Positions 567 to 19,949 of a DNA stretch of 32,299 nt are shown in pieces (position 1 is the stretch's first letter; each line of letters opens with the position of its first letter). The translations under genes were made by a program, and so were the position numbers. This DNA comes from Nitrososphaeraceae archaeon (GTDB lineage Archaea; Thermoproteota; Nitrososphaeria; Nitrososphaerales; Nitrososphaeraceae): contig JADDOW010000075.1 in assembly GCA_016782225.1 (NCBI GenBank), forward strand, positions 1-32,299, given 5' to 3'. Below the pieces are notes generated by a model. The model did no database searches. It was not told where the DNA came from and saw nothing but the letters and a program-made list of their open reading frames with translations.

Positions 567-623
567 TTATCGATTTTTGCGTGTACGCAATTCCTTCTCA
601 ACCAATTCGAAAATTGCTTTTAG

Positions 624-2493: not shown

Positions 2494-2639
2494 TATAGAG
2501 TAAGCCAAACTACAATCCCATCGACTCACACCTTTAACTTGACCTATAACTGCAGATGGGTAAATATATAGATCTTGAGACATGGAGAAATATAAAATGA
2601 AATAAAGTTTTAATGGTGAGTAATAAAATATTGATTGGC

Positions 2640-2930
2640 CTGTGTTTGTAATTTTTGTAGTATTGCAAAAACATCATAATATATTTAGTTTTTAGGCCCG
2701 CATTAGCTCCCACAATCTTTACTTTATCTTGTGCCATGTTCAAGAGTATGGTATTGTATATGGTGGGATCGTTGAGCTTCTCGCTTGTAACTTAAAGTTT
2801 AATCTTTATCTCCTTGGAAAAAGCAGCGCAGTTTAAGGTTAGCGTGTTTGTCAATTGGTTTAGATTGATGTCGTTATTTAGCGTATTCTTATAATACCAT
2901 TTAACTCAAGAGTCATACTGCTATCCGTTG
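2640..2930 (-). pseudogene. Inverted, decayed fragment of an FkbM methyltransferase gene
   Basis: The reverse complement of this stretch follows the middle of the FkbM gene at 1-566. Bases 2790-2885 match about 104-195 with only a few differences (the part coding NQLTNTLTLNCAAFSKETK). Further down the relic's minus strand, about 2733-2790 matches 195-262, including a shared run with tatacaataccatactcttg. Beyond that similarity fades into scraps such as KIVGANAG, which corresponds to KFVEVDANTL. There are in-frame stops and no start. It lies between two same-strand glycosyltransferase genes, so it is a leftover of a duplication followed by inversion. The outer limits are approximate. Confidence 0.8.
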
Positions 2931-3132
2931 ATGTCTTAGTTAAAACCTTGTAGACATCTTGTTAATGGTTTGCAGTAACCTTGATTTTTTATCTAAACAA
3001 AAGTGTGTTTCTATTTAGACATCTGTTTTTTCCTCTTTAACCATGGCATGCATGTTAATATGGCAAATCCAAATTACTTTTATATTGTGTAAGTTTGGTA
3101 TTTGAAAAGGTGAAGACAGGGGAGAAATATTG

Positions 3133-4323
3133 GTGCGAGTGTTGATGGTGTCCACCGAATATCCGCCTATCACTGGAGGAGTGGGCCGTTACACCGAAAA
3201 TCTTACAAAATCCCTTAAAAAATTGGGAATGGAGGTTTATGTGGCTTGCAATGAAGCAGGAAAAGGCGATTTTTCTGGCCTATCTCCGCAAAATGACAAA
3301 AATTCTCAGGTTCTCCTCAAAATAGTCGATAGCATTAAACCTGACCTTGTTCATATTCAGTACGAGCCAGGGATGTATGGCTCGTCAAATAACCCTAAAA
3401 ATTCCAGAGGCAGTGAAACCTACATTGACTTATTCTATAGCAAATGTCCTGTTCCACTAATTACAACATACCATACTGCTTTTACGCTTAAACAATGGTT
3501 GAGCCAGGCAGAGTTGATAAAAAAGTCTGGCAAGGCAAAACAACTTGGAATACCCCTAAGGTTCCTGGTCAGATTTTGGAAATATTCTCTACTCTATAGG
3601 GCATTTCAAAACCAGAATAAAGAAAAACTTGCCTTAAGCAAAGAGGGAATAGTGTTTTCTCAATACACATCAAAACTGATTGGGGGCGGAAAAGTAATCT
3701 ATCATGGGGCGGAACCCGCGTTATCTACAGTTCCAAACAAAAAGGATGCGAGGAGATCATTATCTTTACCGGAAGGGGGAGAAAAAGAAGAAGAAGACAT
3801 TCGAATAGCCTTGGCCCTTGGGTATAAAACATCAAACAAGGGCTGGGATATTCTCAGAAAGATTAAACTGCCACAGGGATGGAGAATAGTGATTAACTCA
3901 TCTAAAAGCCATTATAACACTGAAAGTTACAAGATGAATGAAATACTAAGAAGCAACAAGAACATCATAGACATCCAAAAAGGGTTTCTTTCGGAGGAGG
4001 ATCTTTCGATGTTGTTCTACTCTGCAGATGCCGTTTTACTTCCTTACAAGGTAACTGCTGGATCTGGTGTGATGTTTGACGCAATTGCTCACGGTTTGCC
4101 GTTTGTAGCGTCTGATTTGGGTTTCTTTAAAGAATTTTCTGCCCAGGGACTAGGCATATCGTCTAAAAGAACATCCAAGGATTTTTCAAATGCCATTAAA
4201 AGGCTTGATACCGACTATGATCATTATGTTAAAAGAGTAGCTGATTTTAAAAAAAAGTTATCATGGGACTCTGTAGCTACGCAGCACCAGTCTATATACA
4301 CTGCTGCTGCATTTTCAAGCTAA
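3133..4323 (+). CDS. GT4-family glycosyltransferase, paralogue 2 of 3
   Basis: About 396 residues, predicted GT-B glycosyltransferase and clear sister of the genes at 1291 and 7349. It has the same N-terminus (RVLMVSTEYPPITGGVGRY), the HIQYEPGMYG segment near residue 75, GGGKVIYHGAEPA near 190-200 and the donor-site loop SGVMFDAIAHGLPFVASD. As in the sisters, Asp stands where most GT4 enzymes have the second Glu. I prefer the GTG at 3133 because it aligns with the ATG of the 7349 gene and has GGGGAG eight bases upstream; TTG 3130 is the alternative. It is followed after 30 bp by another glycosyltransferase gene on the same strand, so the two are probably co-transcribed. Donor and acceptor are unknown. 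Confidence 0.9.
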   Translation: MRVLMVSTEYPPITGGVGRYTENLTKSLKKLGMEVYVACNEAGKGDFSGLSPQNDKNSQVLLKIVDSIKPDLVHIQYEPGMYGSSNNPKNSRGSETYIDLFYSKCPVPLITTYHTAFTLKQWLSQAELIKKSGKAKQLGIPLRFLVRFWKYSLLYRAFQNQNKEKLALSKEGIVFSQYTSKLIGGGKVIYHGAEPALSTVPNKKDARRSLSLPEGGEKEEEDIRIALALGYKTSNKGWDILRKIKLPQGWRIVINSSKSHYNTESYKMNEILRSNKNIIDIQKGFLSEEDLSMLFYSADAVLLPYKVTAGSGVMFDAIAHGLPFVASDLGFFKEFSAQGLGISSKRTSKDFSNAIKRLDTDYDHYVKRVADFKKKLSWDSVATQHQSIYTAAAFSS

Positions 4324-4353
4324 TAGGACAATATGGTGGTGGGGTGCTTTAAT

Positions 4354-5457
4354 ATGAAAATTGGAATAATTGCAGATGGAAAAGAGCAGGAAGGGGGAAC
4401 CAAGGAGGTTATCGCCCATATTAAAAGAGCATTTCAAAATAGCGATATAGGGGTAGAATACGTTAATGAAGAAAACTATTTGCCAAAATTCTTTCCAATT
4501 AAATGGAAAGATGCATTCCGATTCTTTTATTTAAGAAAAATATCCAACATTGACCTTTCCAAATATGACATAGTCATAACTTTGCAGCCTGATTCTCACT
4601 GTATCAAACATAAAAATCACATTGTTTACTTTCAACATCACAAGAAACAGTATTATGATTTATTTTGGCAATCGCTGAAACTGAGGAAAAAATTAAGGAA
4701 AAAGATAATGTTTATTGTTTTAGCTGGAGCAACTAGAGTCGCAGACAGACTTTATCTCACACCAAATTTAAAAAAATCATTCATTGTAGTTAATAGCCCC
4801 GTAGTAGGTAACAGGCTGAAGAAATATAACAAAATAGCCAATCACATTGTTATTTTTCCTGGCTGTGATAGCGTAAAAGAATACATTCAAAATAATGATA
4901 TTACAGTATCTTCGATGGAAAAAGGAAATGGCATTCCGACCCTGTTGGCATTTTCCAGGCTAAATGTGACACAAAAAGGTATCGATATAATTCTCGAAAC
5001 TGCATTAATAATGCCACAATATAAGTTCGTTATAGCTGGCCCTTATGATAATACGATTGATAAAATCGATAGAAAAAATTTACCGGCCAACGTAAATCTT
5101 GTTGTCAAAGAATTTTCTGCACAAGAAAAGTTTAATTTATTTAGTAACAGCGACTTATTTTTAGCACCCTACGTGGAAGAGGATTTTGGCATTACGCCCC
5201 TTGAAGCCAATGCCTTTGGTAAACCGGTTGTATATTGCGATGATAGTGGCGGAATTGTTTACACCCAAAAACACCTTGAAACAGGATTTATGTGTAAAAG
5301 AAACACTTCCGATTTTGCCAAAGGGATAGAATATTGCATAAAAAATAGGGAAGATATGGAAATGGCGTGCATTAGCAATTCTGCAGAATATTCCTGGGTC
5401 AAGTTTGAGAAATGTTTCAAAGAGTATATCGACAAACTAAATTTGGTGGTATCCTAG
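4354..5457 (+). CDS. GT4-family glycosyltransferase with canonical E-x7-E motif
   Basis: A 367-residue GT-B glycosyltransferase not closely related to the three paralogues around it. It starts MKIGIIADGKEQEGGTKEVI, with the Gly-rich acceptor-side loop. FSRLNVTQKGIDIIL near residue 205-220 is the donor-domain opening typical of GT4. The donor site reads EDFGITPLE (Glu276 to Glu284, exact E-x7-E spacing), followed by ANAFGKPVV. ATG 4354 is preferred over an ATG seven codons upstream (4333), because it begins directly at the first beta strand and has a GGTGGTGGGG stretch in front of it. It probably shares a transcript with the gene ending at 4323. It converges on the methyltransferase gene at 5703-6686. 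Confidence 0.9.
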   Translation: MKIGIIADGKEQEGGTKEVIAHIKRAFQNSDIGVEYVNEENYLPKFFPIKWKDAFRFFYLRKISNIDLSKYDIVITLQPDSHCIKHKNHIVYFQHHKKQYYDLFWQSLKLRKKLRKKIMFIVLAGATRVADRLYLTPNLKKSFIVVNSPVVGNRLKKYNKIANHIVIFPGCDSVKEYIQNNDITVSSMEKGNGIPTLLAFSRLNVTQKGIDIILETALIMPQYKFVIAGPYDNTIDKIDRKNLPANVNLVVKEFSAQEKFNLFSNSDLFLAPYVEEDFGITPLEANAFGKPVVYCDDSGGIVYTQKHLETGFMCKRNTSDFAKGIEYCIKNREDMEMACISNSAEYSWVKFEKCFKEYIDKLNLVVS

Positions 5458-5702
5458 TAGCCCCCAGACCGTAAAGCCCAAACTATGTTCTTATTGATAC
5501 TTAAATATATACAATCTAAATTTTGTTTGTTTGTCTGATTCCATGTAATTATGTCGAGTTATACAAAATAATATCAGATCACTTGGCAAAAATATTTGAT
5601 GTGTCCAAAAGCATATGCGCTTTAATATCCGCATTAGAGTATCGGTTGATATTATGCAAGAATCTCAATCTGTTAATCAAAAAATTCGTTATTAATGAAT
5701 AT

Positions 5703-6686
5703 TTACGCTTGCTTTTGAAAGACAATCATGATTGATGTAAACAAAATATTTCGGATTTTAAGGAGTATGAGGGGATGACTTTTTTTGTATCCTTCATCCA
5801 TTTTGTCCCAGTTTGCATCAATGGTAAAGTGGTCTATGATGGTATCCAAAGTGTTTGTTGTTATTCTTAAGTCAAGTGGCTCCACAAGTTTTAATTTGTC
5901 TAACTTGTTAATTAAATCTGAATATATTGTTTTTTTATTGAAAAACTCCGGATGCTCTTTGTCATTGAGGATGTACTCTGTTGCTATTACGGCAATACCC
6001 CCTGGCTTTAGCACCCTTTCTATTTCCTTCATACTTTTTAATGCTCCGGAATGGTTTTTTCCACCAAAATGTTCTATGGAGGAAAAGGAAAATGCGATAT
6101 CAAATTTCTCGTCGGGGAAATCCATTTTTGTACCGTCCATTCTTACCACCGTTAATGCGTCTTCTTTGTAAGGAAATGACGCATACTTTTTAGGGTCTTT
6201 AAGAAATTCAATTGGTGCAGCTTTTTTCCATGACTCATTATCTTCATAAAGGTCTGTTGCGTAAACATGAGAAATTTTGTTTGCAAGGTAAAAAGGAATT
6301 GGCTCGGTGCCGCTCCCGACTCCTACAGCTGTACTTGATTTATTTAGTTTATCAAATCTTTTCATTGCTATTATACCAATAGCCCACTCCCAATCTTTTC
6401 TGTGGATAAATCCATGTGGATTGAGTTTTTGCAATTCGATAAGAGTTTCCTTTATTTCAGGATTTTGCCAGTCTTCTATATAGCATAACCTGTTTAACTT
6501 TGTTTTGGAGCTTGTGTCGATTTTGTAAGGGGAGCTATTCTTTAGATCTGACACAAAATCTTCTATTTCTTTTTCGTCTAGTGTTTTACATTTGTCTTCA
6601 ATTTTTGCCCATTCTCTGCCTTTTATGACGTCCTTCACAAGCGAAGGGTGACGTCTTATGGAATTTATTTTTCTTTTTAAAGTCAA
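5703..6686 (-). CDS. Class I SAM-dependent methyltransferase (Methyltransf_11 type)
   Basis: A 327-residue soluble protein with a Rossmann methyltransferase core in its second half. Motif I is VGVGSGTEP (residues 121-129), the acidic strand end is VYATDLYED (141-149), motif IV is FDIAFSFSSIEHFGG (195-209) and the post-core motif is RVLKPGGIAVIATEY (224-238). The first 110 residues are a family-specific N-terminal region. The frame opens with TTG at 6686; no ATG lies nearby upstream, so the start is uncertain. The product probably modifies a small molecule or a sugar in the glycan pathway encoded around it, since it sits between glycosyltransferases, but the substrate cannot be read. It is the only methyltransferase here that is not of FkbM type. 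Confidence 0.85.
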   Translation of the reverse strand: MTLKRKINSIRRHPSLVKDVIKGREWAKIEDKCKTLDEKEIEDFVSDLKNSSPYKIDTSSKTKLNRLCYIEDWQNPEIKETLIELQKLNPHGFIHRKDWEWAIGIIAMKRFDKLNKSSTAVGVGSGTEPIPFYLANKISHVYATDLYEDNESWKKAAPIEFLKDPKKYASFPYKEDALTVVRMDGTKMDFPDEKFDIAFSFSSIEHFGGKNHSGALKSMKEIERVLKPGGIAVIATEYILNDKEHPEFFNKKTIYSDLINKLDKLKLVEPLDLRITTNTLDTIIDHFTIDANWDKMDEGYKKSHPLILLKIRNILFTSIMIVFQKQA

Positions 6687-7348
6687 ATTAAATACCTAAT
6701 TGTTTTTCGTAATTGTTATTTAATCTTTAGACAGGCATATAACTATATGATGCAAATAATACAATCAAGTTTTGCAATTCAACTTGGTTTGCTAAAAGTA
6801 AAATAAGTTAAAATAAAGAAATTGTTTTTTACATCACACAAATAAAGGAAAAGCAATGCAAACAGCTCACAGAAAAAAGAACAACTATAAATAAATAACT
6901 CAAAACAGGGATGAAAGATTGAGATGATGCGGTGATGGGTTTTAACACCTAAAAGAGGCATTTCAGCAAATGGGATCTATTCAATAAAAATAAAGGAAAG
7001 TACAAATCCCAAATGTGTCCTATTGTCTTTATGGTACCATTAAACAGAATAGCTTGAATTCTTAGTAAGGACAAAAAATAAAATTCAATAATAGCGCTAT
7101 TATTGAATTTTGGGATTGGTTGCATGTGGCTATTTACTGAATAAAACTAGAATAAACGATAACCTATGAGCAAAAGACTTTATCTGAAACAACCTCTATT
7201 AAAAGTAAACACCGATATAAAAGACCTGAAAAAAACATTAGTGAACAACTAATTGTGAATCAAGCAGCTTTTTTTCAAACATAATCAGACAAGCCCACAT
7301 AGCAAGAAGAGATACATATAGAAAAAGTGATACACAATACAGAAAAAC
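6687..7348. other. Intergenic region of about 660 bp, no supported gene
   Basis: AT-rich DNA between a minus-strand methyltransferase and a plus-strand glycosyltransferase, so it must hold promoters for both. The only open frames are short hydrophobic AT-rich ones without start signals. The one structured element is a perfect palindrome at 7080-7111, listed separately. Confidence 0.5.
7080..7111. repeat. Perfect 32-bp palindrome
   Basis: The 16 bases on the left are the exact reverse complement of the 16 on the right, centred between 7095 and 7096, with no loop. The core is caataatagcgctattattg. A gap-free palindrome this long suits a dimeric protein-binding site or a cruciform more than an RNA terminator, which would need a loop. 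It lies in the divergent intergenic region about 240 bp upstream of the glycosyltransferase at 7349. Confidence 0.8.
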
Positions 7349-8551
7349 ATGAAAATACTGATGATATGTACAGAATATCCTCCTATGGCTGGAGGCATAG
7401 GTCGATATACGGCAAATTTGACAAAGAATATCCAAAAGTTAGGATTTGATGTATATGTTGTATGTAATGAGAAAGGTGATGGGCACTTTTCTGGCATATC
7501 ACCTTTAAATCAAGAAAACTCCTTTATCTTGTTAAAGATAGTCAATGATCTAAAACCCGATATCATTCACGTACAATTTGATGTTGGATTATACGGATTG
7601 AGGTTTGATCAAAAACAACCAAAAAAAGTAGAAACATATATTGATAGATTTTATAACGAATGCAAAATTCCCATAATAACAACTTTCCATTCTGGAAAAA
7701 AAGTTTATCGCAGTTATGTGACACTGGAATCTTTATTAAAAAAGGAAGGCAGGATGGGATTGGCAGGGGCGCCGGTGAGGATTTTGTTCAGGCTATGGAG
7801 ATATTCTTTAAACTATCTTGGGCTAAATAATATATACAGAGACAAATTAAGTAAAAGTCATTCGGGCATAGTGTTTTCACATTTTATGTCAAAGACACTT
7901 GGTGGCAGGTGCCAGGTAATTTATCATGGTGCTGAACCTGCTATAGACGATTTTAATTCAAATAAAGCGGAAGCAAGAAAGAAACTTGACATTCAAGATA
8001 TCAAAGACGGTGAAAGAGTAGCTTTAGCTGTTGGATTTACAACTGACGGAAAGGGATGGGATCTACTTCAAAAGATAAACCTGCCTAAGGGATGGAAATT
8101 AGTAATAAATTCTTCTAAAAGCTATTTTAATAACGAGAATATCACAATTAATTGGAAAGAATCATCATCAAACATAATAGATTTGAAGAGGGGCTATCTT
8201 GGCGAAGAAGATCTATCTATGCTGTTCTATGCCTCTGACGCAGTAATATTGCCATACAAGGCCGCTTCTGGTTCGGGTGTCATGTTTGATGCTTTGGCTC
8301 ACGGTTTGCCATTCGTAGCAACGGATTTGGAGTTTTTTAAAGAATTTGCAGCCCAGGGATTAGGCTTAGTGGTAAAAAGAAATTCTAGTGACTTTTCCAA
8401 AGCATTGGGTATTCTTGCTGATAATTATGATGAATATTCAAAAGCTGTAGACAAATTTAAAGAGAAAATAAGTTGGAGTAATATTTCTAAAGAACATTCT
8501 GATTTATATCATTACGTTATGGGAAGTAACTCAATAAAGGAACATAAATAG
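7349..8551 (+). CDS. GT4-family glycosyltransferase, paralogue 3 of 3
   Basis: A 400-residue predicted GT-B glycosyltransferase, third member of the set with 1291 and 3133. It begins MKILMICTEYPPMAGGIGRY, carries HVQFDVGLYG near residue 75 and QVIYHGAEPA near 190, and has the donor loop SGVMFDALAHGLPFVATD, with Asp in place of the second Glu of E-x7-E. The ATG is unambiguous and defines the starts chosen for its sisters. No Shine-Dalgarno is visible. It stands alone, without a gene close on either side, unlike paralogue 2. The family members probably add different sugars to related glycans; this is inference from copy number and context. Confidence 0.9.
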   Translation: MKILMICTEYPPMAGGIGRYTANLTKNIQKLGFDVYVVCNEKGDGHFSGISPLNQENSFILLKIVNDLKPDIIHVQFDVGLYGLRFDQKQPKKVETYIDRFYNECKIPIITTFHSGKKVYRSYVTLESLLKKEGRMGLAGAPVRILFRLWRYSLNYLGLNNIYRDKLSKSHSGIVFSHFMSKTLGGRCQVIYHGAEPAIDDFNSNKAEARKKLDIQDIKDGERVALAVGFTTDGKGWDLLQKINLPKGWKLVINSSKSYFNNENITINWKESSSNIIDLKRGYLGEEDLSMLFYASDAVILPYKAASGSGVMFDALAHGLPFVATDLEFFKEFAAQGLGLVVKRNSSDFSKALGILADNYDEYSKAVDKFKEKISWSNISKEHSDLYHYVMGSNSIKEHK

Positions 8552-9040
8552 TTTAGTGGCCCAAAACCGTTATACGCTGTGTAAACCGGTTAGATTTTAA
8601 GGCTGCCGTTTACATAAAAAAATCAAAGTTACCGTTTTACAAATTTGTATATCTGAATCCCCAGCAGTGGAATAGCCTTATTTTATCCAACAGTTTTAGA
8701 AATGCCTGTGAATAATATGTTTTAGTAAAAGTTACAGTTTAAAAGTAAAATCAAAAATGATGATGCTGTGATTAGATTTGTTTACTAGTTCGCTAATACG
8801 ATTTTTTTAATAGACGCCCTTTTTCTAATTATCACTTTAACCATGAAATTGCTTTTTAGCTTTATGATGAAAATACTGTAACAAATCTGTTAGAATACCC
8901 CGCAATTGATTAGTTTCTATTGATTTTACAATCCTGTTTGAAAAAACACGTGGTTTGAAAAAGAAAGGTTAATTCTTTTAAAACAAGGCATGGCATTAAT
9001 GTAATCAATCAATTAATCAATTAAAAATATAAATGAGATT
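8552..9040. other. Intergenic region of about 490 bp, nothing recognised
   Basis: AT-rich DNA with short direct repeats (atcaatcaattaatcaatt near 9004-9022) immediately upstream of the FkbM gene at 9041. No reading frame or hairpin stands out. Confidence 0.4.
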
Positions 9041-10027
9041 GTGGATTTAAAATATTCCTTGTATAAACTCCCCTCCAACAACAACAACAACAACAATGAA
9101 TATCCAATTGGTAGTAATAAATGGCTATTAAAAGAAATAAAAGGAGCTACCTTGTCTGATAAATTGGTAATACACTCTTTAAAATTTTTTTACCTGTTTT
9201 CAAGAATAGTTTTAAGAATAGTTTTAGGCAAAAGAAGGAGAGACAGGATGTGGATTGATAAGAAAATTAGTTTCAGCGGTTTTTTATATAAATCGATTGA
9301 ATATTTGGGCCTGGATAATACACTATTACTAAGGTTTGATAACCCAAACCATAATTTCAAGTTTTATAGCAAAGTCACAAATAAGATTGAAAATTTTTCA
9401 ATACATGACATGTATATGAGTATGTCTACTCATGAGGAGGACATATTGGAACAATTTTCGCCTAAAGAGGGTGGCATATTTGTAGATGTTGGAGCTGCTT
9501 TTGGTTTTTATACTATAGTTGGCTCAAGAAAAGTTACCAATACAGGGAAGGTAATATCAATAGAGCCTCACCCTGACATTTTTGATATGCTAAATCGTAA
9601 CATAAAGTTTAACCAATTAACCAATGTAGTTACCCTAAATTATGCTGTTTCTTCGAAAAAGACAAAAGTAAAACTCTATAGCAGCTATAGTATATTGCCT
9701 GAAAGAGACAGAAAAGGCAGCAAAAAGTTTGTGGAAGTTGATGCAAACACGTTGGATAACCTGTTGCAACAAAACGGAATCAATGCAGAGGATGTCAACT
9801 GGGTAAAAATCGACGTGGAAGGGGCAGAGCTTGAGGTTTTGAGGGGAGCTACCAATGTCCTATCCAAAAGCAAAAACATTGCTCTTTTAGTAGAAGTACA
9901 TGGCCATGAAAACTATGAACCGCTTTTGAAGTTGATTGATTCTTATGATTTTGTTATAGAATTTGAAAAAAACTATGAATGGGGGGACAAACACATAATT
10001 GCAAGAAAAACACCTATGCCGATATAA
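9041..10027 (+). CDS. FkbM-family SAM-dependent methyltransferase
   Basis: A 328-residue protein starting at GTG 9041. A short variable head with seven consecutive Asn, encoded by a CAA/AAC repeat near 9077-9097, is followed by a hydrophobic, basic-ended segment (FFYLFSRIVLRIVLGKRRR) that may sit on the membrane. The FkbM domain begins near residue 143. Motif I is FVDVGAAFGFYT, differing from the GAHIGRYT of its sisters. It is followed by VISIEPHPD, LNRNIKFNQLTNV and the C-terminal VKIDVEGAELEVLRG near 255-269. Bases 9728-9886 are identical over 159 bp to the copy at 12188. It is presumed to methylate a sugar hydroxyl of a surface glycan; the acceptor is unknown. Confidence 0.88.
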   Translation: MDLKYSLYKLPSNNNNNNNEYPIGSNKWLLKEIKGATLSDKLVIHSLKFFYLFSRIVLRIVLGKRRRDRMWIDKKISFSGFLYKSIEYLGLDNTLLLRFDNPNHNFKFYSKVTNKIENFSIHDMYMSMSTHEEDILEQFSPKEGGIFVDVGAAFGFYTIVGSRKVTNTGKVISIEPHPDIFDMLNRNIKFNQLTNVVTLNYAVSSKKTKVKLYSSYSILPERDRKGSKKFVEVDANTLDNLLQQNGINAEDVNWVKIDVEGAELEVLRGATNVLSKSKNIALLVEVHGHENYEPLLKLIDSYDFVIEFEKNYEWGDKHIIARKTPMPI

Positions 10028-10346
10028 CTGGAATACATCATATCAAATCTCGATAAAAAGTTCTTTTCCTCTTCTGCTTGATATGTATAATAGCGTTATA
10101 TAAAACGTCAAACGTAAAGTTTAATCATCTTGTTCTCCTTAGATGTCCCGGTGCTACCCCTGCTTCCCATGCTATGTGCGTTAATTATGGCCTTCATTAC
10201 CCAAAACATGTCATAAATAAATAAATAAATAAATAAATAGAAAATAATTTTTAATCCTGATAATTAGATTACACGAATATTCTGAAATAATGGTTTCCAG
10301 AGTTTGTTAGATGGCACCATAATCTCAAACAAAGGACTGACATTAT
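10028..10346. other. Intergenic region with an (aaat)n tandem repeat and a possible inverted FkbM scrap
   Basis: Bases about 10213-10240 are a perfect tetranucleotide repeat of aaat/ataa units (seven copies). On the minus strand around 10070-10160 there is a short resemblance to the FkbM SKETKIKLY region (tctaaggaga... ...attaaacttta), too short to be sure. No complete gene is visible. Confidence 0.4.
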
Positions 10347-10571
10347 ATGCAACAACATCTAACACTCGTACAAGAAATAATCGGTATCTGGGAGCTACCG
10401 GATAAAGCCCTAAAAAAGGCCCAACATAATCTTCAACCAATGAAAAAATTTATCAAACCCAAATCAACAGTCCAATCATTTAAACAAAAAGATGTTAAAA
10501 GTTTGTCTGTATTGCTACCAAAAACCATGTATCCTTCCAACTGTATTTCATTGAATGCTATAACAAAATGA
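10347..10571 (+). CDS. Hypothetical 74-residue basic protein
   Basis: ATG-started frame of 74 codons with a Lys- and Gln-rich, mostly helical product (residues 1-55). It has no cysteine pairs until the end, no membrane segment and no motif I can name. Its codons look more ordered than the AT-rich surroundings, which is the only support for coding. It sits between two FkbM loci and may be a remnant of something longer. Confidence 0.3.
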   Translation: MQQHLTLVQEIIGIWELPDKALKKAQHNLQPMKKFIKPKSTVQSFKQKDVKSLSVLLPKTMYPSNCISLNAITK

Positions 10572-10693
10572 AACATTATTTTTGACAGTAATATATTTTC
10601 TTTCAATTTTCTTGTTTTACATTTATTGCTACAGTACTTTTAAATAAATTAACATCAAGATGTGAGTTTGTAGATTCTGTAAGTATCAAGACT

Positions 10694-11584
10694 TTGCTTT
10701 TGAAGGAAGCAAAAGGCATGACTAAAAAAGACAGAATTGTATTATTTTCTTTTAAAAACATATATCTAATCTCGAGTTGTAAGTAGGATAGTTTTAGGAA
10801 AGAAAAAACGCTATCGTTTACATATTGAGAACGGGAGTACTTTTAAAAATATCTTATACAAATACATAAAATTTTTAGGAATGGGTTATTTGGCGCAAAA
10901 ATTAATGTCCCTAAATATGATTTTCAGGCCTATTGTCAAAGTGAAGATGATTTCAAAGATTTTGTAGTAATGACAAAACATGAAATTGACTAAATCACAC
11001 GCTTTTGCCCTGATGAAGGGGATGTGGTTGTAGACATTGGTGAGCACATGGATCTTTGACAATGGCCTCAAAGCGAGTTGGCCAAATTGAAAGGCTGTTG
11101 CCATTGAATCTAATCCTTCGGTATTAAAAATATTAAATAGAAATACTAAATTAAATAACTTGAATAATGTTACACCTGTCAAAAACATTGTATACTCTAA
11201 AGAAATGAAAATGGGATTTGCTGTGTATAATAAAATGTTTTTAGATGGATATGGTCAATCTGAAACTAAAAATAAAACTAAGGCTGTACATGTTAATACA
11301 TTAGATAACCTATCACGATGAAAAGGGTAAATGAGATCAATTGTGTCAAAATCGACGTTGAGGTAGCAGAACTGGAAGTTTTAAAAGGATCTCATAACAT
11401 ACTGCCTAATAGTAAGGATATCTCAATCCTTATAGAAATCCATGGTACAATTCATTTATGTGAGCCAATAATGGATCTGCTTAGATCATATAATATCAAA
11501 ATAGAGTTTGAAAAGACATTTGATGATTATAAACAACAGAGTATGAGAGGGGCCAAGAACGTATTATTGCGAAAATCTGTTTAG
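10694..11584 (+). pseudogene. Decayed FkbM methyltransferase gene
   Basis: Follows the other FkbM genes from end to end but with stops and frameshifts. The N-terminal part LLKEAKGMTKKDRIVLF ends in a TAG, then RIVLGKKKR resumes in another frame from about 10789. The SAM loop survives only as DEGDVVVDIGEH in shifted frames around 11010-11050. AIESNPSVLKILNRNTKLNNLNNV follows near 11100-11170, and HVNTLDNL runs into a stop near 11320. The last open piece (11318-11584) still reads VKIDVEVAELEVLKG, with Val replacing the highly conserved Gly of VEGAE, and it ends normally. The many independent lesions show true decay rather than a sequencing error. Confidence 0.85.
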
Positions 11585-12187
11585 TGAGAATGTATATATC
11601 AGTTGCATCACAATAAAATTGATTTCTGTTTCCTATATTCTATATGTCCTATTTTTTTATGTAAAACGATGGATTTTCCAAATCGTTTGTTTTGTATTGT
11701 ATTGTTTTTCACACATAAAAAGAGACTCAAATGAACATATTTGCTTTGAATTATATATCTCCTCTATATGATAATAATAGTTTTTATCAATGATTTTATA
11801 TTGATTAAAGTGTTTATAGAATACTCTTTTTCTCGTGAATGAATCCAGAAAAATATATAATATAACTTTAAAACTATGCTAAACATCCTTTGTAAATATT
11901 GCCATTCTTTTTTTGTGCATACATTGAGATCGTTGTTCAGGTTAAGTGTTGATTGTACCTATCTATTTCTGTATCTGATATATCTGCGTTCTTTTGTTTC
12001 GGATTCAGTTATAATAAAATACTTTTTGATGACAACAAAATTAAAGTTTTTTATACTACATGCTTTAAAGCCTTCTGTTTTTTTGACTATTGTATTTTTA
12101 CATCAAGTTTCAAATTTTCAATTCTATTTCAATATCAGACTTTACATCCCTGAAAATATTTATTAAACGGAAATAAAAAAATATGTG
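11585..12187. other. Intergenic region of about 600 bp, no supported gene
   Basis: Very AT-rich. A 96-codon frame from ATG 11876 and an overlapping 66-codon frame are hydrophobic and Phe-rich in the way random AT-rich DNA often is, so I do not call them. An A/T-rich TATA-like stretch (aaatatttattaaa, about 12146-12165) precedes the FkbM gene at 12188 and may be its promoter. Confidence 0.4.
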
Positions 12188-13162
12188 ATGCCTGAAAGGT
12201 TATCTGCGTGGTTACTGAAGGGACCTACTGGTGGTTTGGTTCTTCAATTTGATACATTCGTGTTATTTGTTTTAAGGATTTTTTATTTAGCAACAAGGGT
12301 TTTCCTCAGGGTTGTTTTGGGCAAGAAAAAAAGAGATGACCTGTATTCCAAAGGTAAACTTTCGTATTTTAATGATGACTTTAGCGCATCATTTCTAACC
12401 TTGATGTATTTATCCCATATTAAAAAATTCCTAAGGCTGGGTAATACTTTATTATTAAAATTAAGTGTACCCAAATACAATTACAGAGTCTATTGTCCTG
12501 CCAGTAAAGACGATTTCATAAATATGACAATACGTGAAGATGAGCTGTTAGAGCGCTTTAACCCCAAGGAAGGAGAGGTGGTTGTGGATGTTGGTGCCCA
12601 TATAGGACGTTATACCCTAATAAGCTCAAAACGTGTTGGCCCAAAAGGAAAGGTAATTGCCATTGAAGCGCATCCTTCGGTAATAAAAATGCTGAATAGA
12701 AACATCAAATTAAACCGCCTCACCAATGTTACAACGTTAAACTATGCTGTTTATTCAAAAGAGACAAAAATAAAACTTTATGATCACCGCAAAGAGGTAG
12801 ATGCAACTATTTACAATACGGTAATGACAGGCAGAGTAAAAGACCGGGGTGAATTTGTGGAAGTTGATGCAAACACGTTGGATAACCTGTTGCAACAAAA
12901 CGGAATCAATGCAGAGGATGTCAACTGGGTAAAAATCGACGTGGAAGGGGCAGAGCTTGAGGTTTTGAGGGGAGCTACCAATGTCCTATCCAAAAGCAAA
13001 AACATTGCTCTTATGGTGGAAATCCATAATGTTGATGGCAAGGGTAAAAACTTTTACAGCACAATAATGGATATACTGAATCATCATAATTTTAAAATTG
13101 AATTTGAGCAATCGTATAGTTCAGGAGAGAAACACGTTATTGCAAGGAAGCATCCGGTTTAG
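12188..13162 (+). CDS. FkbM-family SAM-dependent methyltransferase
   Basis: A 324-residue FkbM methyltransferase. The N-terminus (MPERLSAWLLKG) leads into a hydrophobic stretch ending in a basic patch (RVVLGKKKRDD, residues 39-50), shared with all FkbM copies here and possibly a monotopic membrane contact. The catalytic domain has motif I VVDVGAHIGRYT from about residue 131, VIAIEAHPS, MLNRNIKLNRLTNV, and VKIDVEGAELEVLRG near 248-262. ATG 12188 is taken; GTG 12185 is one codon earlier. Its segment 12854-13012 is identical to 9728-9886, while the flanking sequence is clearly different. The gene stands alone on the plus strand, with no close upstream partner. Confidence 0.9.
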   Translation: MPERLSAWLLKGPTGGLVLQFDTFVLFVLRIFYLATRVFLRVVLGKKKRDDLYSKGKLSYFNDDFSASFLTLMYLSHIKKFLRLGNTLLLKLSVPKYNYRVYCPASKDDFINMTIREDELLERFNPKEGEVVVDVGAHIGRYTLISSKRVGPKGKVIAIEAHPSVIKMLNRNIKLNRLTNVTTLNYAVYSKETKIKLYDHRKEVDATIYNTVMTGRVKDRGEFVEVDANTLDNLLQQNGINAEDVNWVKIDVEGAELEVLRGATNVLSKSKNIALMVEIHNVDGKGKNFYSTIMDILNHHNFKIEFEQSYSSGEKHVIARKHPV

Positions 13163-13515
13163 CAAATACTCGAATTTTATACGAAAAGACAATAGGATGT
13201 TTTTTTAATGATTTGTTTTGTTTTGTTATATGCCTAAAGCCACTCGATAGTGGTTTTTATCCGTTGATTCTAGGTTTTAATTAACATATCTTTATGGTGG
13301 TTTTGAAACACCCTTTTTTGGGTGGATGAGCCGAGATAGAATAGTGATAAAAAAAAACAAATAAAGATACTGTAATGCATGTTGTAGACTTTTGATAAGG
13401 GTCTGTTTTAAAAATTTAATTGATTGTGGTTCACTGACACAAATACTGCTCTTTTACTGCCAATTCTTAAAGAACAGTTTATTGAATGCCTAAAAGAAAT
13501 TATATGTTGATTATA
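13163..13515. other. Convergent intergenic region, nothing recognised
   Basis: About 350 bp between the 3' ends of a plus-strand FkbM gene and a minus-strand glycosyltransferase. T-rich runs after 13198 (ggatgttttttta) may serve as an archaeal transcription stop for the FkbM gene. There is no reading frame of note. Confidence 0.35.
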
Positions 13516-14586
13516 TCATCTTTTTCCGTTGTCAACAAGCCATTTTGATATAAACAAACCTAAATTATTTCTGAAAGACTCTGCAGAAAATTTTTTTGCG
13601 TATTCCCTTAATCTTTGAGACTCGGAAATACTCCATGATGACAATGCGATTTTTACCGAATCAACTGCTTCTTCAATATTGTTGTATCTGTATTTTTCTT
13701 CTATTATGGCGTCAATTTTTGCGGCGCCTGAATCATGTGCTACCGGAATTATTCCGGCACTCATCGCCTCAACATACGCAATTCCAAAGTGTTCTCCTAT
13801 GAAACCATGCAACATTACTTTTGATTTCTTTAGTACATCTATTTTTTCGTCGACTGTTGCATTGATGTGAAAAACAACGTTTTTTGGAGAATTTTTTTGA
13901 AGATTATCTAGGTACCATGCCTTGTCTGGAGTTATGCTTCCGACAAGTTCAAATTTTACATCCGGCAATCTCCTTGCCACTTCTAGTATTGTCTCATATC
14001 TTTTTTCTTCGGTGAACCTGCCTATGGAACAAACAACATCTTCTTTTACTTGAGCGTCATTTAGTGGAAACGAGTATTGAGGACAAGGGGGATATATGAC
14101 AACCGAATCCATTCCCCATGCGGATTTTATTGCATTTTTGGTATAGTTGCTGTTGGTAATTATGGTGGATTGTTTTATGTAATCCAAATTGTTTGATATA
14201 AACATCCATGGCCTAATGTACCATTTTTTCAATATTTTGCTCTGATACTTTTCGCTCGCTACTTCTAAATCCACGGGGTAATGCACATAGACAATTGTGC
14301 GTTCTGCAATATCTTTTGGGATGAGGCTGGATCCCCCTGTGACTAAAACAAAGTCAACTTTGTATCTCTTTATTAGTTTTTTAAAGAAAAAATAGGAATA
14401 AACAAGCCGCTGATACGCTCCTAGAAACGGAAGTATTTCATTTCTTCCAATTGATTTTACAAATCCACTTATGGAATCAGTAACATCTATTCCTATCCTA
14501 TCAAGAGTTTCGTTTCTTTCAGGATATGAACTGGAGCATAGAAAAACTTTGGAACTCATTTCATGCATAGCTTTGATTGAATGCAA
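13516..14586 (-). CDS. Alg11-like GT4 glycosyltransferase, N-terminus possibly frameshifted
   Basis: About 356 residues as read from TTG 14586. It is a GT-B glycosyltransferase resembling the Alg11-type mannosyltransferases. VYVHYPVDLE lies near residue 100, VVIYPPCP at 162-169, and CSIGRFTEEKRYETIL at 186-201 starts the donor domain. GFIGEHFGIAYVEAMSAGIIPVAHDSG at about 261-287 has Glu265 and Glu273 in E-x7-E spacing. The frame lacks a good start: upstream it still encodes VAIIIVIPVCGEHVGLHS but reaches a stop without an ATG. An adjacent frame opens with ATG 14692 and reads MDFNDISVGVVHYNM, a plausible first beta strand. A small indel near 14620-14650 would join the two. The function is presumably addition of a hexose to a lipid-linked glycan. 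Confidence 0.8.
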   Translation of the reverse strand: MHSIKAMHEMSSKVFLCSSSYPERNETLDRIGIDVTDSISGFVKSIGRNEILPFLGAYQRLVYSYFFFKKLIKRYKVDFVLVTGGSSLIPKDIAERTIVYVHYPVDLEVASEKYQSKILKKWYIRPWMFISNNLDYIKQSTIITNSNYTKNAIKSAWGMDSVVIYPPCPQYSFPLNDAQVKEDVVCSIGRFTEEKRYETILEVARRLPDVKFELVGSITPDKAWYLDNLQKNSPKNVVFHINATVDEKIDVLKKSKVMLHGFIGEHFGIAYVEAMSAGIIPVAHDSGAAKIDAIIEEKYRYNNIEEAVDSVKIALSSWSISESQRLREYAKKFSAESFRNNLGLFISKWLVDNGKR

Positions 14587-14986
14587 ACCAACATGTTCGC
14601 CACATACGGGAATTACTATTATAATGGCAACTCTCTCCGTAGGCTTCCATGTTGTAGTGCACTACTCCTACACTGATGTCATTGAAATCCATAGCATTTT
14701 CTGATTTTTTCATAACCTACCATTGTTGTATATTAAATTGTCAAAATTGTTATAAATCTTTATTAAGCAAAACTGTTAGTTATTATGCATCAAAAATTAT
14801 CTTTTAAGCACCGTAAAATAAAGGAATCTAATTATATTTATCATGTAAAATAGAGAATACAATGAGACCAATGCCAATGATGTCTTAATTTTTGACATAT
14901 GGTTTTTGTATTTATAGAATATGTATTTAGATATTTCTACGCTTATAAGAATTAATAAATGGATGATTGTTTAACTATCAATATCA

Positions 14987-15487
14987 ATGCGCATGATTAA
15001 AAGGAGCTTTTTAAACTCCGCTAAATTTTGGAGTTGGGTAGGCAGGAGATTTTGGGAGTCTCGTCAATTTTATGGTGCATATATTGCACTGTTCATAGCC
15101 ATAACTAACTGGATTACAATTCAGTATAGGTTACTTTTACAAAACATACCTGGGCTCAATATTCTCTTTAGCAATATCTTTGTATTTATGGTAGTTGCAA
15201 TATTGATTTTCTCTTTAGCTAGTGTTCTTGGAGGGCATTATATCCATAGAAAAAGGCAGTTTAGATTGGAAAATGCATTGGCGGTAGAAGAAAACCCATA
15301 TTTATACATGGCCGCACCCGGAAAAGAAAAAGATTTGATGATTCCTGTAATAATGTTGCAGATGGAAACCTTGGAGGAACTATTAAAGGCAAATAATACT
15401 TTAACAGACGAAAAGAAAAAGAAATTTGAATCGTTTAGACAAGATTTATTGAAACTAAAAGAAGGTGGACGTATAGAACGCAAATAA
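14987..15487 (+). CDS. Small membrane protein with two TM helices, unknown function
   Basis: A 166-residue protein. A basic, aromatic N-terminus (residues 1-28, many Arg and Trp) precedes two hydrophobic helices at about 29-51 and 61-83. A charged cytoplasmic-type tail follows and is helical and Lys/Glu-rich from 125 onward (MLQMETLEELL ... DEKKKKFESFRQDLLKLK), possibly a short coiled coil. ATG 14987 is taken; ATG 14993 is also possible. I do not recognise the family. Codon use and the clean topology make it a real gene. It stands between a glycosyltransferase and an FkbM gene, so a role at the membrane in glycan assembly is possible but unproven. Confidence 0.75.
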   Translation: MRMIKRSFLNSAKFWSWVGRRFWESRQFYGAYIALFIAITNWITIQYRLLLQNIPGLNILFSNIFVFMVVAILIFSLASVLGGHYIHRKRQFRLENALAVEENPYLYMAAPGKEKDLMIPVIMLQMETLEELLKANNTLTDEKKKKFESFRQDLLKLKEGGRIERK

Positions 15488-15646
15488 AACATCCGGATGT
15501 TGCAAAGCTAGTCATTCGTTATTTGAGTTTTCTATATTGCTATGCCCTTTGCTTAAACATATTGCATGTCTATATTCCCATATACATCGCCAAAAAATAT
15601 TATATTCCCTTTAATAAGTGGTTGATGACCATGAATACTCCTTGTT

Positions 15647-15827
15647 CTATGGATTTGTAAGTTGTAATTTACTTTCAAGGTTCCTCTTATCTTGTAAATG
15701 CGCCATGTGTTTGAAAGAGCATATTTCAGTACCCTTTGATTTAACATTTTCAAAAACTGTTTTGCATCCAAAGTCTTTTAAATAATCCTCTAATGTGGCG
15801 TTTATTTTATTATATGACTGTTATTTA
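15647..15827 (-). pseudogene. Unidentified gene fragment, no start codon
   Basis: Between two stops on the minus strand, this frame encodes about 57 residues that look like real protein: INATLEDYLKDFGCKTVF followed by a Lys/Glu-rich stretch ending QLTNP. There is no start codon, and the DNA directly upstream carries stops. A second minus frame (72 codons, 15553-15771) overlaps it but has a less protein-like composition. The source family is not recognised; a C-terminal piece of a methyltransferase or similar enzyme is only a guess. Confidence 0.3.
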
Positions 15828-15839
15828 TGTTTAGCATAG

Positions 15840-16778
15840 ATGGAAAGGATACTTTCATGGTTAATATTGAACTCGGAAGGAATTACCCTCTCTGATAAAA
15901 TATTACTGTTTTTTATAAAACTTGTTTATCTGGGTTTAAGAGTCATATCTAGAATAGTATTAGGTAAAAAGAGGCGAAATAAATTATATCTTGAGCGAGA
16001 TCTCGATTTTGGGTCACTATGGCTTAAATTTTTCAAGTACCGGAAAAGAGGTAAAAAAGATTCAGCATTGTTAAAATTTAAAATGCCAAAATATAATTTC
16101 GAATTCTTTTGCAGGAAGAATAAAGACGATTTCAAAATAATGACATTTCATGAAGATGATATACTAGAACATTTTACTCCAAGGGAAAACGACATTGTTA
16201 TAGACGTTGGCGCGCATATTGGTCCATATGCTATAATCGCATCAAAACGTGTTGGCCCAAACGGAAAAGTAGTTGCCATTGAAGCAGACCCAAGCAATTT
16301 TGATATACTAAATCGCAACATACGTCTCAATAAACTTACAAATGTGTTGGCATTGAATTATGCTGCATACTCTAAAGAAGATGTCGTTAAACTATACTTG
16401 CCAGGTAAAGGGGATTACGATTCCTCTTATACAAAATACAATACTGTGATGGTGGACCGAGACATTGGCGAAAAAAAATTTGTAGAGGTAAAAGCAAATA
16501 CACTGGATTTTCTTTTGCAGTCAAATCAAATAAAACCAGAAGATGTAAACTACATAAAAATCGATGTTGAAGGGGCGGAATTTGAAGTTCTGAAGGGGGC
16601 AAAAGATATACTTTCTAAAAGCAAAAGAATCTCACTTTTAATAGAGGTCCATCACATTTCTAGCGGCATTGATCTATATGAGTCCATAAGTAAATTCCTT
16701 GGTCTATACAGTTTTAAAATAGCATTTGAACAGAAATATGAGAGCGGAGAAAGACATATAATTTTACACAAGTATTGA
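15840..16778 (+). CDS. FkbM-family SAM-dependent methyltransferase
   Basis: A 312-residue FkbM methyltransferase starting at ATG 15840 (MERILSWLILNSEG). Residues 20-50 are the shared hydrophobic-plus-basic element (FFIKLVYLGLRVISRIVLGKKRR). Motif I VIDVGAHIGPYA starts near residue 119, the ribose-binding acid is in VVAIEADPS, LNRNIRLNKLTNV follows, and the C-terminal signature IKIDVEGAEFEVLKG lies near 238-252. It shares long identical DNA runs with the next gene (for example 16548-16600 with 17659-17711), and the two are probably a recent tandem pair. The T/A-rich tract around 15804-15822 may be its promoter. The gap to the next gene is about 190 bp, so co-transcription is possible. Confidence 0.9.
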   Translation: MERILSWLILNSEGITLSDKILLFFIKLVYLGLRVISRIVLGKKRRNKLYLERDLDFGSLWLKFFKYRKRGKKDSALLKFKMPKYNFEFFCRKNKDDFKIMTFHEDDILEHFTPRENDIVIDVGAHIGPYAIIASKRVGPNGKVVAIEADPSNFDILNRNIRLNKLTNVLALNYAAYSKEDVVKLYLPGKGDYDSSYTKYNTVMVDRDIGEKKFVEVKANTLDFLLQSNQIKPEDVNYIKIDVEGAEFEVLKGAKDILSKSKRISLLIEVHHISSGIDLYESISKFLGLYSFKIAFEQKYESGERHIILHKY

Positions 16779-16971
16779 TAATTATAAATATCGACATTAA
16801 ATCTCTGATTCTAAAGATATGTCAAAAAATACGGTCAAGTCATTTCATTATCTGCAACCACAATCTTTCCCTTCTCTTTCCCTTCCCTTCATTTGTCTTT
16901 AGCCCTAATGAAGAAAAGCAAAAAATATTCATTCTTAAAGATATTTACAATAGATGCATAATAAAAAGAAG

Positions 16972-17883
16972 ATGGGAAACCTTACTTCTTGGTTCATGCG
17001 AGAGTCGCAAGGAGTAAACGCTTTTGATAACCTCATCTTATTATTTCTAAAAGTTATATATTTGGGTAGAAGGGTCTTATTTAGAATATTTTTAGGCAAG
17101 AAAAGAAGAGATGAATTATACATTGAAAGGGGTCTTGACTTTGCGGAATTTCTGTATAGACATATCAAGTTATTCAAACCCTGGTCCAAGTTATTGACTT
17201 TCAAAGTGCCAAAATACAACTACAAATTCTATTGCAGAATTAACAAAGATGACTTCATTGTTATGACAAGACATGAGGATGTGATAATAGATTATTTTCA
17301 TCCTAAAGAGGGAGATGTGGTTGTAGACGTTGGCGCGCATATAGGTCGTTATACTATAATAGCCTCACAACGTGTTGGCCCAAACGGAAAAGTAGTTGCC
17401 ATTGAAGCTGAGCCAAGCAATTTTGAGTTATTGAATCGTAACATACAGTTGAATCAATTATCAAATGTCACAACCCTGAACAATGCTGCCTTTTCCAAAG
17501 AAACAAAAATAAAACTCCACTTGCCAGCTGGAGATATTTTCACCAAATTCAATACTGTAATGCCTGATTTGTCATGGATAACACCCACAAATAACTTTGT
17601 AGATGTGAATGCTAACACATTGGATAATTTGTTGCAACAAATTGGAATAAAACAGGTCAACTACATAAAAATCGATGTTGAAGGGGCGGAATTTGAAGTT
17701 CTGAAGGGGGCTCATAACCTGCTAGTAAATAGCAATAACATTGTACTTCTTATAGAGGTCCATGGGCATGTAAATGATTATAGACAGAAGATAGACGAAT
17801 TCATTAGAACATACAATTTGAAAATAGAGACTGAAAAGATCTATGAAATGAATGGATATATAATCGCACGAAAATCTGCTTAA
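16972..17883 (+). CDS. FkbM-family SAM-dependent methyltransferase
   Basis: A 303-residue FkbM methyltransferase. ATG 16972 (MGNLTSWFMRESQG) aligns with the start of the preceding paralogue and is chosen over ATG 16954, which adds six Lys-rich residues. The shared N-terminal element (YLGRRVLFRIFLGKKRR) precedes the catalytic domain. Motif I VVDVGAHIGRYT starts near residue 115, then VVAIEAEPSNFELLNRNI, then IKIDVEGAEFEVLKG near 231-245. The loop before the last motif is shorter than in the other copies (QIGIKQVNY instead of QNGINAEDVNW). It is the last gene of the glycan island; about 1 kb of gene-free DNA follows. Confidence 0.9.
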   Translation: MGNLTSWFMRESQGVNAFDNLILLFLKVIYLGRRVLFRIFLGKKRRDELYIERGLDFAEFLYRHIKLFKPWSKLLTFKVPKYNYKFYCRINKDDFIVMTRHEDVIIDYFHPKEGDVVVDVGAHIGRYTIIASQRVGPNGKVVAIEAEPSNFELLNRNIQLNQLSNVTTLNNAAFSKETKIKLHLPAGDIFTKFNTVMPDLSWITPTNNFVDVNANTLDNLLQQIGIKQVNYIKIDVEGAEFEVLKGAHNLLVNSNNIVLLIEVHGHVNDYRQKIDEFIRTYNLKIETEKIYEMNGYIIARKSA

Positions 17884-17949
17884 CAATTCAGCGACATTTG
17901 AAAAAGCACATGCATTTTGTTATTGGCGGAACAATAAAAGAAAAACGGA

Positions 17950-18190
17950 CAGTGCTCTGTTCACCTGGGCAATTTTGATAATTCGCTATGGACATCTGCA
18001 AAAACACATTCAACCAATTTTTTGCACATGCTTAATTTACACTTCTTATTCTTGCATGAAATATCTGCAATGGTTCTGCACTGCCTTAACACATTGGATT
18101 GTTGTCTCCATAATAATTTTCTCAAATGGGGAATTCAAATAATGCTGCATCACATGTTTCAATATACCCATAATTTGATATCCATGTGGT
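17950..18190 (-). pseudogene. Possible transposase C-terminal relic
   Basis: On the minus strand, broken frames resemble the end of a DDE-type transposase. One piece reads FEKIIMETTIQCVKAVQNH. After a frame change comes CKNKKCKLSMCKKLVECVF followed by ADVHSEL, with stops between. The order (an E-x-x-x-Q helix, then a Cys/Lys-rich piece, then a His-containing helix) recalls archaeal transposase tails, but I cannot name the IS family and saw no terminal inverted repeats. Confidence 0.3.
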
Positions 18191-18939
18191 TGTAGCAACA
18201 CCGGTATCAGGCATAAAATAATTCATAATAATCCCATACACAATCCTGTATGCTATTTCTGACATTGAAGCAATGAATTTTAAATAAATGGACTGCAGCA
18301 ATTATAGAACACTGTATTACCTGAAATCACTTAACGATTCACTAAATTAATTCAGTGTAACATAGCCAAAGAGACTTTTTGTTATTATGATGTTTCAAAC
18401 ATCAAACTTCTGTATGAAACATAAAAAACGAGGGGCTCAATAAAAATCAGATAGTTGCGATTGTGAAAACTCCTATGCTATTTTTGGAATTGATGAGGAT
18501 GGTGAATCTTTATAACAATCACATATGGGAGAAGCGCCAAAAAAACTAAAACTGGAAAAGGAAATAGGTGGCAGGATGAAAAACATGGCAGTAGAAATCA
18601 ATATGGCACATAAAAATAATATGCAAATAATTTAGGCCTGTAGTATTATGAAACAGGGGCCGCCTACAATTTGAGAATTTGAACCACTTACTGCTTTTAC
18701 ATTACCTGGTGTATCTCTTTTTTTACCTAAGCGATGGATAAATTTGACAAGCGGTCTCAACCTGCTTTGTTGAACTGCATGTCTATTCCAGCAACCCGGC
18801 TCAATCGTTTTGCCCCTCAGTGACCTATGGTCCCAACGCCTTGATTAAGCTGCGGTAGCCCCGATAAGTTGTTATTTGCCGTGTTTGGCATTTATATCCT
18901 CTATCAATACTCGGCTAAAGCAGATTAGTTATTAATCAA
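18191..18939. other. Gene-poor stretch of about 750 bp
   Basis: No complete gene. A small plus-strand frame from ATG 18525 (about 35 codons, Lys-rich, MGEAPKKLKLEKEIG) follows a scrap reading CDCENSYAIFGIDEDGESL in the same region and could be the remains of a gene. The last 250 bp, up to the MgtC stop, are more GC-rich but show no structure that I can assign. Confidence 0.35.
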
Positions 18940-19416
18940 TCATTCGTCATCGGATATCCTATCCTTCATTCTTTTTATGTTAGGTAGGCGCGAAACAAGT
19001 ATGAAATACCCAACGCCAACAAGCGCAATAAAATGATAATCAAAGCCAATTGCCATTCCAATGGCCCCGGAAAACCATATACTTGCGGCGGTTGTTAGGT
19101 TCAATACCTTGTTTGGCTTGCTTTGTATTTCAGAATCTGTTCTGCCTTCAAGTTCACCCTTAAGTATTACCCCTGCACCAAGGAATCCTATCCCGCTGAC
19201 AATCTGTGCTGCAATTCTTGAAGTAGAATTTGGGTCTACCGAAGCAGACAGAAACGTAAAGATCATTGAACCGCCGATCACAAGGGAATGAGTTCCTACT
19301 CCTGCAGGCTTACCTTTAGATTCCCTTTCGGACCCTATAACATAGCCAGCAAGCAATGAAATGCCTATGTTGATTAATAAATTTAGCTCATATCCTTTAA
19401 AGAATGTCTCAATCAT
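18940..19416 (-). CDS. MgtC/SapB family membrane protein
   Basis: A 158-residue polytopic protein of the MgtC/SapB family, linked to survival at low magnesium and to control of membrane ATP synthase or ion balance. Hydrophobic helices lie at about 12-28, 43-60, 68-86, 108-123 and 127-143. Family hallmarks are IGSEREsKGKPAGVGTHSLV (residues 27-46), RIAAQIVSGIGFLGAGVILK (67-86) and LTTAASIWFSGAIG (107-120). The size equals the core domain without the C-terminal ACT-like extension of long MgtC. It starts at ATG 19416 and stands alone. Confidence 0.9.
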   Translation of the reverse strand: MIETFFKGYELNLLINIGISLLAGYVIGSERESKGKPAGVGTHSLVIGGSMIFTFLSASVDPNSTSRIAAQIVSGIGFLGAGVILKGELEGRTDSEIQSKPNKVLNLTTAASIWFSGAIGMAIGFDYHFIALVGVGYFILVSRLPNIKRMKDRISDDE

Positions 19417-19447
19417 GTTTTACTGATAAAGTTAATGCCTTTTTATA

Positions 19448-19949
19448 TCAATCAGAAAAGGGTATGCACAATACAATACAACACACATTTAGATCAAGAA
19501 AAAAATCATTAATATCCAAGGTGTCAAAATCAGTCCACAATCTATACCCTGTAAATACAAATACCTGAAAGTGAAGATAGGGAGTATAGGTATAGCCTGT
19601 CATGCCAACCCTGGCTATCTCCTAGCCCGCCCGAACCTGTTGACCTGCCCTTACTTTCGGACCGTTATGCTCGAAGTGGTCATATCTTGTATACTGATCA
19701 TTTTGGTGCATAATTGCAATAAAATTGGAATAGTTCCAGTATGACAGATTTGGACCCTACTTTGGAGTCATCCTTGACGTATGAGACCGTACCGTCCGCA
19801 GATGCAAGAAACGGAGTGTTATGTGGTACAATAAAATCAATTGCGTTTCTGAGATTGCCTAAATGCGCCGGAGATGTTATATCGATTCGCTGTAGATGGT
19901 TTTGAGGCAAGGATATCCTATATTTGTTCTTGGTGCTCATTAGGAACAC
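19448..19949 (-). pseudogene. Broken M23 (LytM-like) metallopeptidase gene
   Basis: The N-terminal frame (from ATG 19940 or 19949) encodes RIDITSPAHLGNLRNAIDF, with the His and Asp of the first zinc motif, then TPFLASADGTVSYVKDDS. A shift near 19740-19750 moves the rest to another frame, which reads YDHFEHNGPKVRAGQQVRAG, an in-frame TAG at 19622-19624, then VGMTGYTYTPYLHFQVFVF. That last piece is the M23 HxH motif with Tyr in place of its first His. The frameshift, the stop and the lost zinc ligand together mean the gene is dead. Functional M23 enzymes cut peptide cross-bridges; archaeal ones are of unclear use. Confidence 0.8.

Follow-up and report, generated by a model that had tools for sequence, protein, structure and literature searches.

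Evidence for recurrent gene conversion in the methyltransferase cores of FkbM paralogues from a Nitrososphaeraceae glycan cluster

Introduction

Long-lasting concerted evolution of protein-coding paralogues has been reported to be rare in prokaryotes (PMC6053082). In the survey by Wang and Chen (2018, PMC6053082) such evolution is documented for seven genes of archaea, all of them from methanogens; no gene from a glycan cluster and no representative of the Thaumarchaeota is among these archaeal cases. In methanogens mtrA-1 and mtrA-2 undergo a concerted evolution by gene conversion which is limited to a domain (PMC4632066).

The locus presented here resembles mtrA in several respects: the paralogues are archaeal, a conserved part is overwritten, the remainder stays divergent, and the process recurs across species. 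The dimensions differ. In mtrA a whole domain is exchanged between two copies over a very long time, whereas here the tracts of 110-160 bp lie inside one domain, involve several copies and are seen in two closely related genomes. With the prokaryotic cases of concerted evolution (PMC6053082) the locus shares that paralogues within a genome are closer to each other than orthologues and that synteny is preserved; it differs from them in that the exchanged unit is a short intragenic tract. The enzymes themselves are typical members of the FkbM family (PF05050) with no unusual properties, and a literature search retrieved no paper which links FkbM with gene conversion. The case is a fresh instance of a known process, not a new kind of system.

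The glycan cluster and its sister locus

The window, i.e., the whole stretch of DNA that was analysed, is an entire contig of 32,299 bp (G000:C37) from an archaeal genome of 2.6 Mb in 118 contigs. It contains a cluster of glycan type with GT4 glycosyltransferases and methyltransferases. Five FkbM genes are present, the first of which is truncated at the end of the contig, together with a single decayed copy; an additional FkbM gene is located on a different contig of the same genome. Every intact FkbM copy scores above the curated cut-off of the PF05050 profile. All are encoded on the forward strand: gene 1 (W1, 3-566, PF05050; truncated here and complete in the sister genome, L038:1239-2285), gene 2 (W2, 9041-10027, PF05050 E=2.4e-20), the decayed gene 3, which was not homogenised (10898-11584), gene 4 (W4, 12185-13162, PF05050 E=3.2e-24), gene 5 (15840-16778) and gene 6 (16954-17883). 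The sister copy of gene 3 (L036 6785-7533) is broken too and is about 130-160 bp longer. Near the start of gene 2 a run of asparagine codons (9041-9100) differs between window and sister by one repeat unit, in frame.

Three GT4 glycosyltransferases of the cluster are related to each other, i.e., GT-A (1270-2493), GT-B (3130-4323, a mosaic) and GT-C (7349-8551), all on the forward strand. Two others are more distant (4333-5457, and 13516-14586 on the reverse strand). A class I methyltransferase is encoded at 5703-6686 on the reverse strand. Further, a protein of 519 aa has an internal repeat (28549-28643 and 29008-29102, 75%) and is followed downstream by a histidine kinase-like reading frame.

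Among 70 genomes of the family that were searched the locus was found in two, that of the window and a sister genome (G001), the public MAG Nitrososphaeraceae archaeon YB3_2 (JADDOQ01). In the sister the locus is distributed over two contigs, C181, with 94-96% identity across most of 4115-19459, and C110, with 92% identity across 1-3985. The gene order over both contigs is that of the window, i.e., there is no sign of unequal crossing-over. A study of Atacama boulders described Ca. Nitrosodeserticola with two species and with genomes that share 93.0-99.8% ANI (PMC8627038). Judging by its sample label, AB19_YB3, the sister presumably belongs with this study; that the window represents its other species is a guess. 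A compact cluster with two FkbM genes and GT4 genes exists in another archaeal genome (L083, G025:C1 1298000-1315000), which also encodes a homologue of the small protein at 14987-15487. It may resemble the window cluster prior to its expansion.

A 159-bp tract common to diverged FkbM genes

The earlier note on this DNA had reported that positions 9728-9886 in gene 2 and 12854-13012 in gene 4, both on the forward strand, agree base for base. This is correct: 159/159 positions are identical and the match ends immediately at both edges. The 5' part of the tract recurs in gene 1 (262-373, forward strand) with a single difference from gene 2 at position 293, as also noted earlier; the match of gene 1 to gene 4 begins at 267. 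The strong divergence on either side of the block is evident from the numbers. Between genes 2 and 4, 39.3% of the sites are different in the 5' flank (the portion aligned from column 150) and 44.7% in the 3' flank, compared to 0/159 in the block. Genes 5, 6, and 7 do not carry the tract. When trees are calculated separately for 5' flank, block and 3' flank, gene 2 joins gene 4 exclusively in the block; in either flank it is separate from genes 1 and 4.

Given that unconverted copies of this core are 70-74% identical, an uninterrupted run of 159 bp has a chance probability of ~1e-21 to 1e-25. Codon constraint, which the earlier note had considered insufficient, does not account for the identity either. 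Where the codons of genes 2 and 4 specify one and the same amino acid, none of 52 differs synonymously in the block, whereas 57/105 (~54%) differ outside. Had silent divergence been equal in block and flanks, the proposal of the earlier note would have had to be abandoned; it is 0% versus ~54%. In the block, the very same motif is encoded in genes 5, 6, and 7 with synonymous differences from gene 2 in 39-61% of the same-amino-acid codons. The gene-conversion test that had been proposed was carried out as a GENECONV-type permutation. In the window the run of 73 polymorphic sites shared by genes 2 and 4 was reached in 0/2000 shuffles, and the run of 41 sites obtained with third positions alone likewise in 0/2000. 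The sister genome gave the same result (0/2000). Thus, the paralogues are far more alike in the tract than in its flanks, silent sites included, as is expected of gene conversion.

A search with the block yielded no match in the PLSDB plasmids. Among the 70 family genomes it retrieved the sister and, in a single additional genome, a weak remnant, but no others. The remnant (L062, G010:C216, 1982-2214) derives from an FkbM gene and is 83% identical to 129 bp of the block; the genome which holds it was without any FkbM match when the family was searched. In further archaeal genomes that contain several FkbM genes (G016, G025, G044) the longest exact shares are just 9-18 bp, so that tract sharing is no general trait of the family. 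The possibility of an inserted or mobile element was considered and rejected because homologous sequence occupies the corresponding place in the unconverted copies, hence nothing was inserted.

Timing and direction of the exchange

The comparison with a sister strain, also suggested earlier, turned out to be informative. In the same locus with the same gene order, sister genes 2 and 4 carry an identical 159-bp tract with the same ends as in the window, and sister gene 1 agrees with sister gene 2 over 112 bp without any difference. That a second genome repeats the tract is a strong argument against an assembly artefact. When the blocks of genes 2 and 4 are compared between the two genomes, the sole difference is an A (CTA) in the window versus a G (CTG) in the sister at position 9862 of gene 2 (forward strand, alignment column 308) and at its counterpart in gene 4, 12988 (forward strand). 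Within each genome both genes have the same state. Accordingly, paralogues are closer to each other than orthologues at one FkbM block site in both genomes and, in the window, in a patch of GT-A.

Assuming no conversion after the split, the probability of identical paralogue blocks in both genomes is 2e-4 to 1.2e-2, dependent on the rate. When the shared site 9862/12988 is included it falls to 5e-6 to 8e-5, again dependent on the rate; in the FkbM block the post-split signal consists of this one shared site plus the lack of other differences, in two genomes. The identity of the paralogues in both genomes together with the shared site argues that homogenisation went on after the species had separated, and, judged by sequence, the copies in genes 2 and 4 were most likely homogenised after the split of window and sister. 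The tract ends common to both species suggest an older, first event before this split. Alternatively, the ends mark points where homology drops too low.

Gene 1 serves as a reference for the direction. In the final 48 bases of the block its distance to both genes 2 and 4 is ~21%. Further downstream it differs from gene 4 by 22.5% and from gene 2 by 41%. These distances point to gene 2 as the recipient of sequence of the gene 4 type; for the 3' part of the block copying of the gene 4 type into gene 2 is most likely, as far as distances to gene 1 can tell.

Further tracts in the cluster

GT-B contains a segment of about 350 bp of the GT0 type (3810-4159, forward strand; the 5' limit is between ~3775 and 3810), which is ~2% different from sister C110:1-478. 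Up to ~3775, and again for ~70 bases past 4159, GT-B is orthologue-like. Between 3810 and 4159 it differs from its own sister orthologue by 22-33% across most of the comparable part, and the mosaic segment is not present in this orthologue. The GT0 counterpart of the window is not in the window assembly. The ends of the sister contigs C110 and C181 fall inside GT-B in a stretch where the two paralogues concerned are identical, which suggests a common repeat of ~200 bp. In principle the mosaic could be a chimeric join; against this, the 5' junction shows no extended run of identical bases. In GT-A the patch at 2138-2208 (forward strand) differs from the paralogue GT-C at 3/48 positions and from its own sister orthologue at 8/48. 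The exact core match between FkbM genes 5 and 6 is 53 bases long in the window and does not exceed 23 in the sister.

An orphan fragment of gene 1, the counterpart of 104-283, is located between genes in inverted orientation (2700-2882, reverse strand). In the window it is 88% identical to gene 1, in the sister 180/180 positions are identical. In this region sister gene 1 is 94% identical to the window gene and 89% to the window fragment. As the sister gene is near the window gene and less near the window fragment, these identities indicate that in the sister the fragment was probably the recipient and was overwritten by gene 1. A shufflon with an invertible C-terminal cassette was rejected: the three frames on the fragment's own strand hold stops, and an FkbM C-terminus is absent after it. 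Neither for GT-B nor for the inverted fragment do the two species have the same tract, so exchange continued after the split.

Consequences for the proteins

The FkbM tract encodes FVEVDANTLDNLLQQNGINAEDVNWVKIDVEGAELEVLRGATNVLSKSKNIAL. This portion of the FkbM domain is highly conserved and includes the strand-helix core KIDVEGAE with invariant residues. A structure model, used solely for placing the block, positions it in a strand-helix-strand core (gene 4 residues 224-276) with low confidence (mean pLDDT only 62.6). A PDB sequence search returned just distant methyltransferases, which aligned at the SAM-binding part. In genes 2 and 4 the protein sequence of the block is identical; conversion therefore homogenises and does not diversify. 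The earlier note had envisaged paralogues that swap internal cassettes and thereby diversify glycan methylation. Conversion is retained from this proposal; a diversification of the FkbM enzymes is not, since the block protein is identical and the flanks stay divergent. The cassette-swap reading fits better with the neighbouring GT4 glycosyltransferases than with the FkbM genes. Among the tracts found, only that in GT-B alters the protein, i.e., many residues of the C-terminal glycosyltransferase domain are replaced, and by sequence an altered function could result.

Relatives of the genus Nitrosocosmicus have no S-layer, possibly a glycocalyx and multiple glycosyltransferase genes (PMC11559005). 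By analogy, a role of the cluster in a surface glycan is plausible. A much bolder proposition, which we consider unlikely, is that recombination at this locus drives variation of the archaeal cell coat. Segments would then be swapped continually among decayed copies, inverted fragments and the paralogues of both GT4 and FkbM, and new glycosyltransferase specificities would arise between neighbouring populations.

Discussion

With a probability of roughly 0.9 the block is a gene-conversion tract, the product of recurrent ectopic gene conversion within a glycan cluster. The earlier note had arrived at recent conversion or recombination between archaeal FkbM paralogues, and the silent-site signal and the tract in the sister support this. 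We propose that genes 1, 2, and 4 are old FkbM paralogues of one glycosyltransferase/methyltransferase cluster. Through homologous recombination one copy would repeatedly receive 110-160 bp of the methyltransferase core from another while the gene order is kept. A first event would predate the split of window and sister, and at least one more would have followed it. The neighbouring GT4 genes and the inverted gene 1 fragment would be subject to the same process. A non-reciprocal conversion of the RecA/RadA type appears to be the probable mechanism, and for FkbM the presumable outcome is a homogenised core, either passively or aided by selection against core damage.

Could the identity merely be inherited from a single conversion before the species split, with no later exchange? 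Equal tract ends in both species, the preserved gene order and the few substitutions in the core of every gene are compatible with this. Yet genes 2 and 4 should then have drifted apart by ~2-4 bases per genome, and zero differences are observed in both; the sole species difference is common to both copies (P 5e-6 to 8e-5), and the GT-B and inverted-fragment tracts are not the same in the two species. We consider this improbable. Marginally less credit still is due to a dedicated cassette-swapping system, similar to antigenic variation, with silent fragments as donors for expressed glycan genes. The orphan inverted fragment homogenised in one species, the decayed gene 3 and the GT-B mosaic with its altered protein segment would suit such a system. 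However, the FkbM block encodes the same amino acids in genes 2 and 4, the tracts of the FkbM and GT4 genes sit between intact ORFs and not in a promoterless donor archive, the sister orphan fragment looks like a recipient instead of a donor, and a recombinase or switch site was not identified.

A fragmented assembly in which repeats were collapsed or a consensus was copied would be suspected from 118 contigs and from contig ends within these very genes (gene 1 at window base 1, GT-B at the ends of sister C110 and C181). The earlier note had named collapsed repeats in the assembly as a ground for refutation. The separately assembled sister genome has the tract in both copies with a different, species-specific base, and the differing flanks demonstrate that the genes were not collapsed. 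An artefact is thus very improbable. Least credible of all is an extreme constraint on the nucleotides of the block by codon usage, RNA structure or an embedded signal. The block does encode a highly conserved protein segment, but the silent differences of genes 5, 6, and 7 from gene 2 over the same motif refute such a constraint family-wide.

Recurrent ectopic gene conversion in this cluster adds a case from an ammonia-oxidising soil lineage, with short tracts limited to catalytic cores. It is also a warning that in clusters of this kind both trees and orthology assignments can err from one tract to the next. With two close species at hand the size and rate of conversion tracts become measurable.
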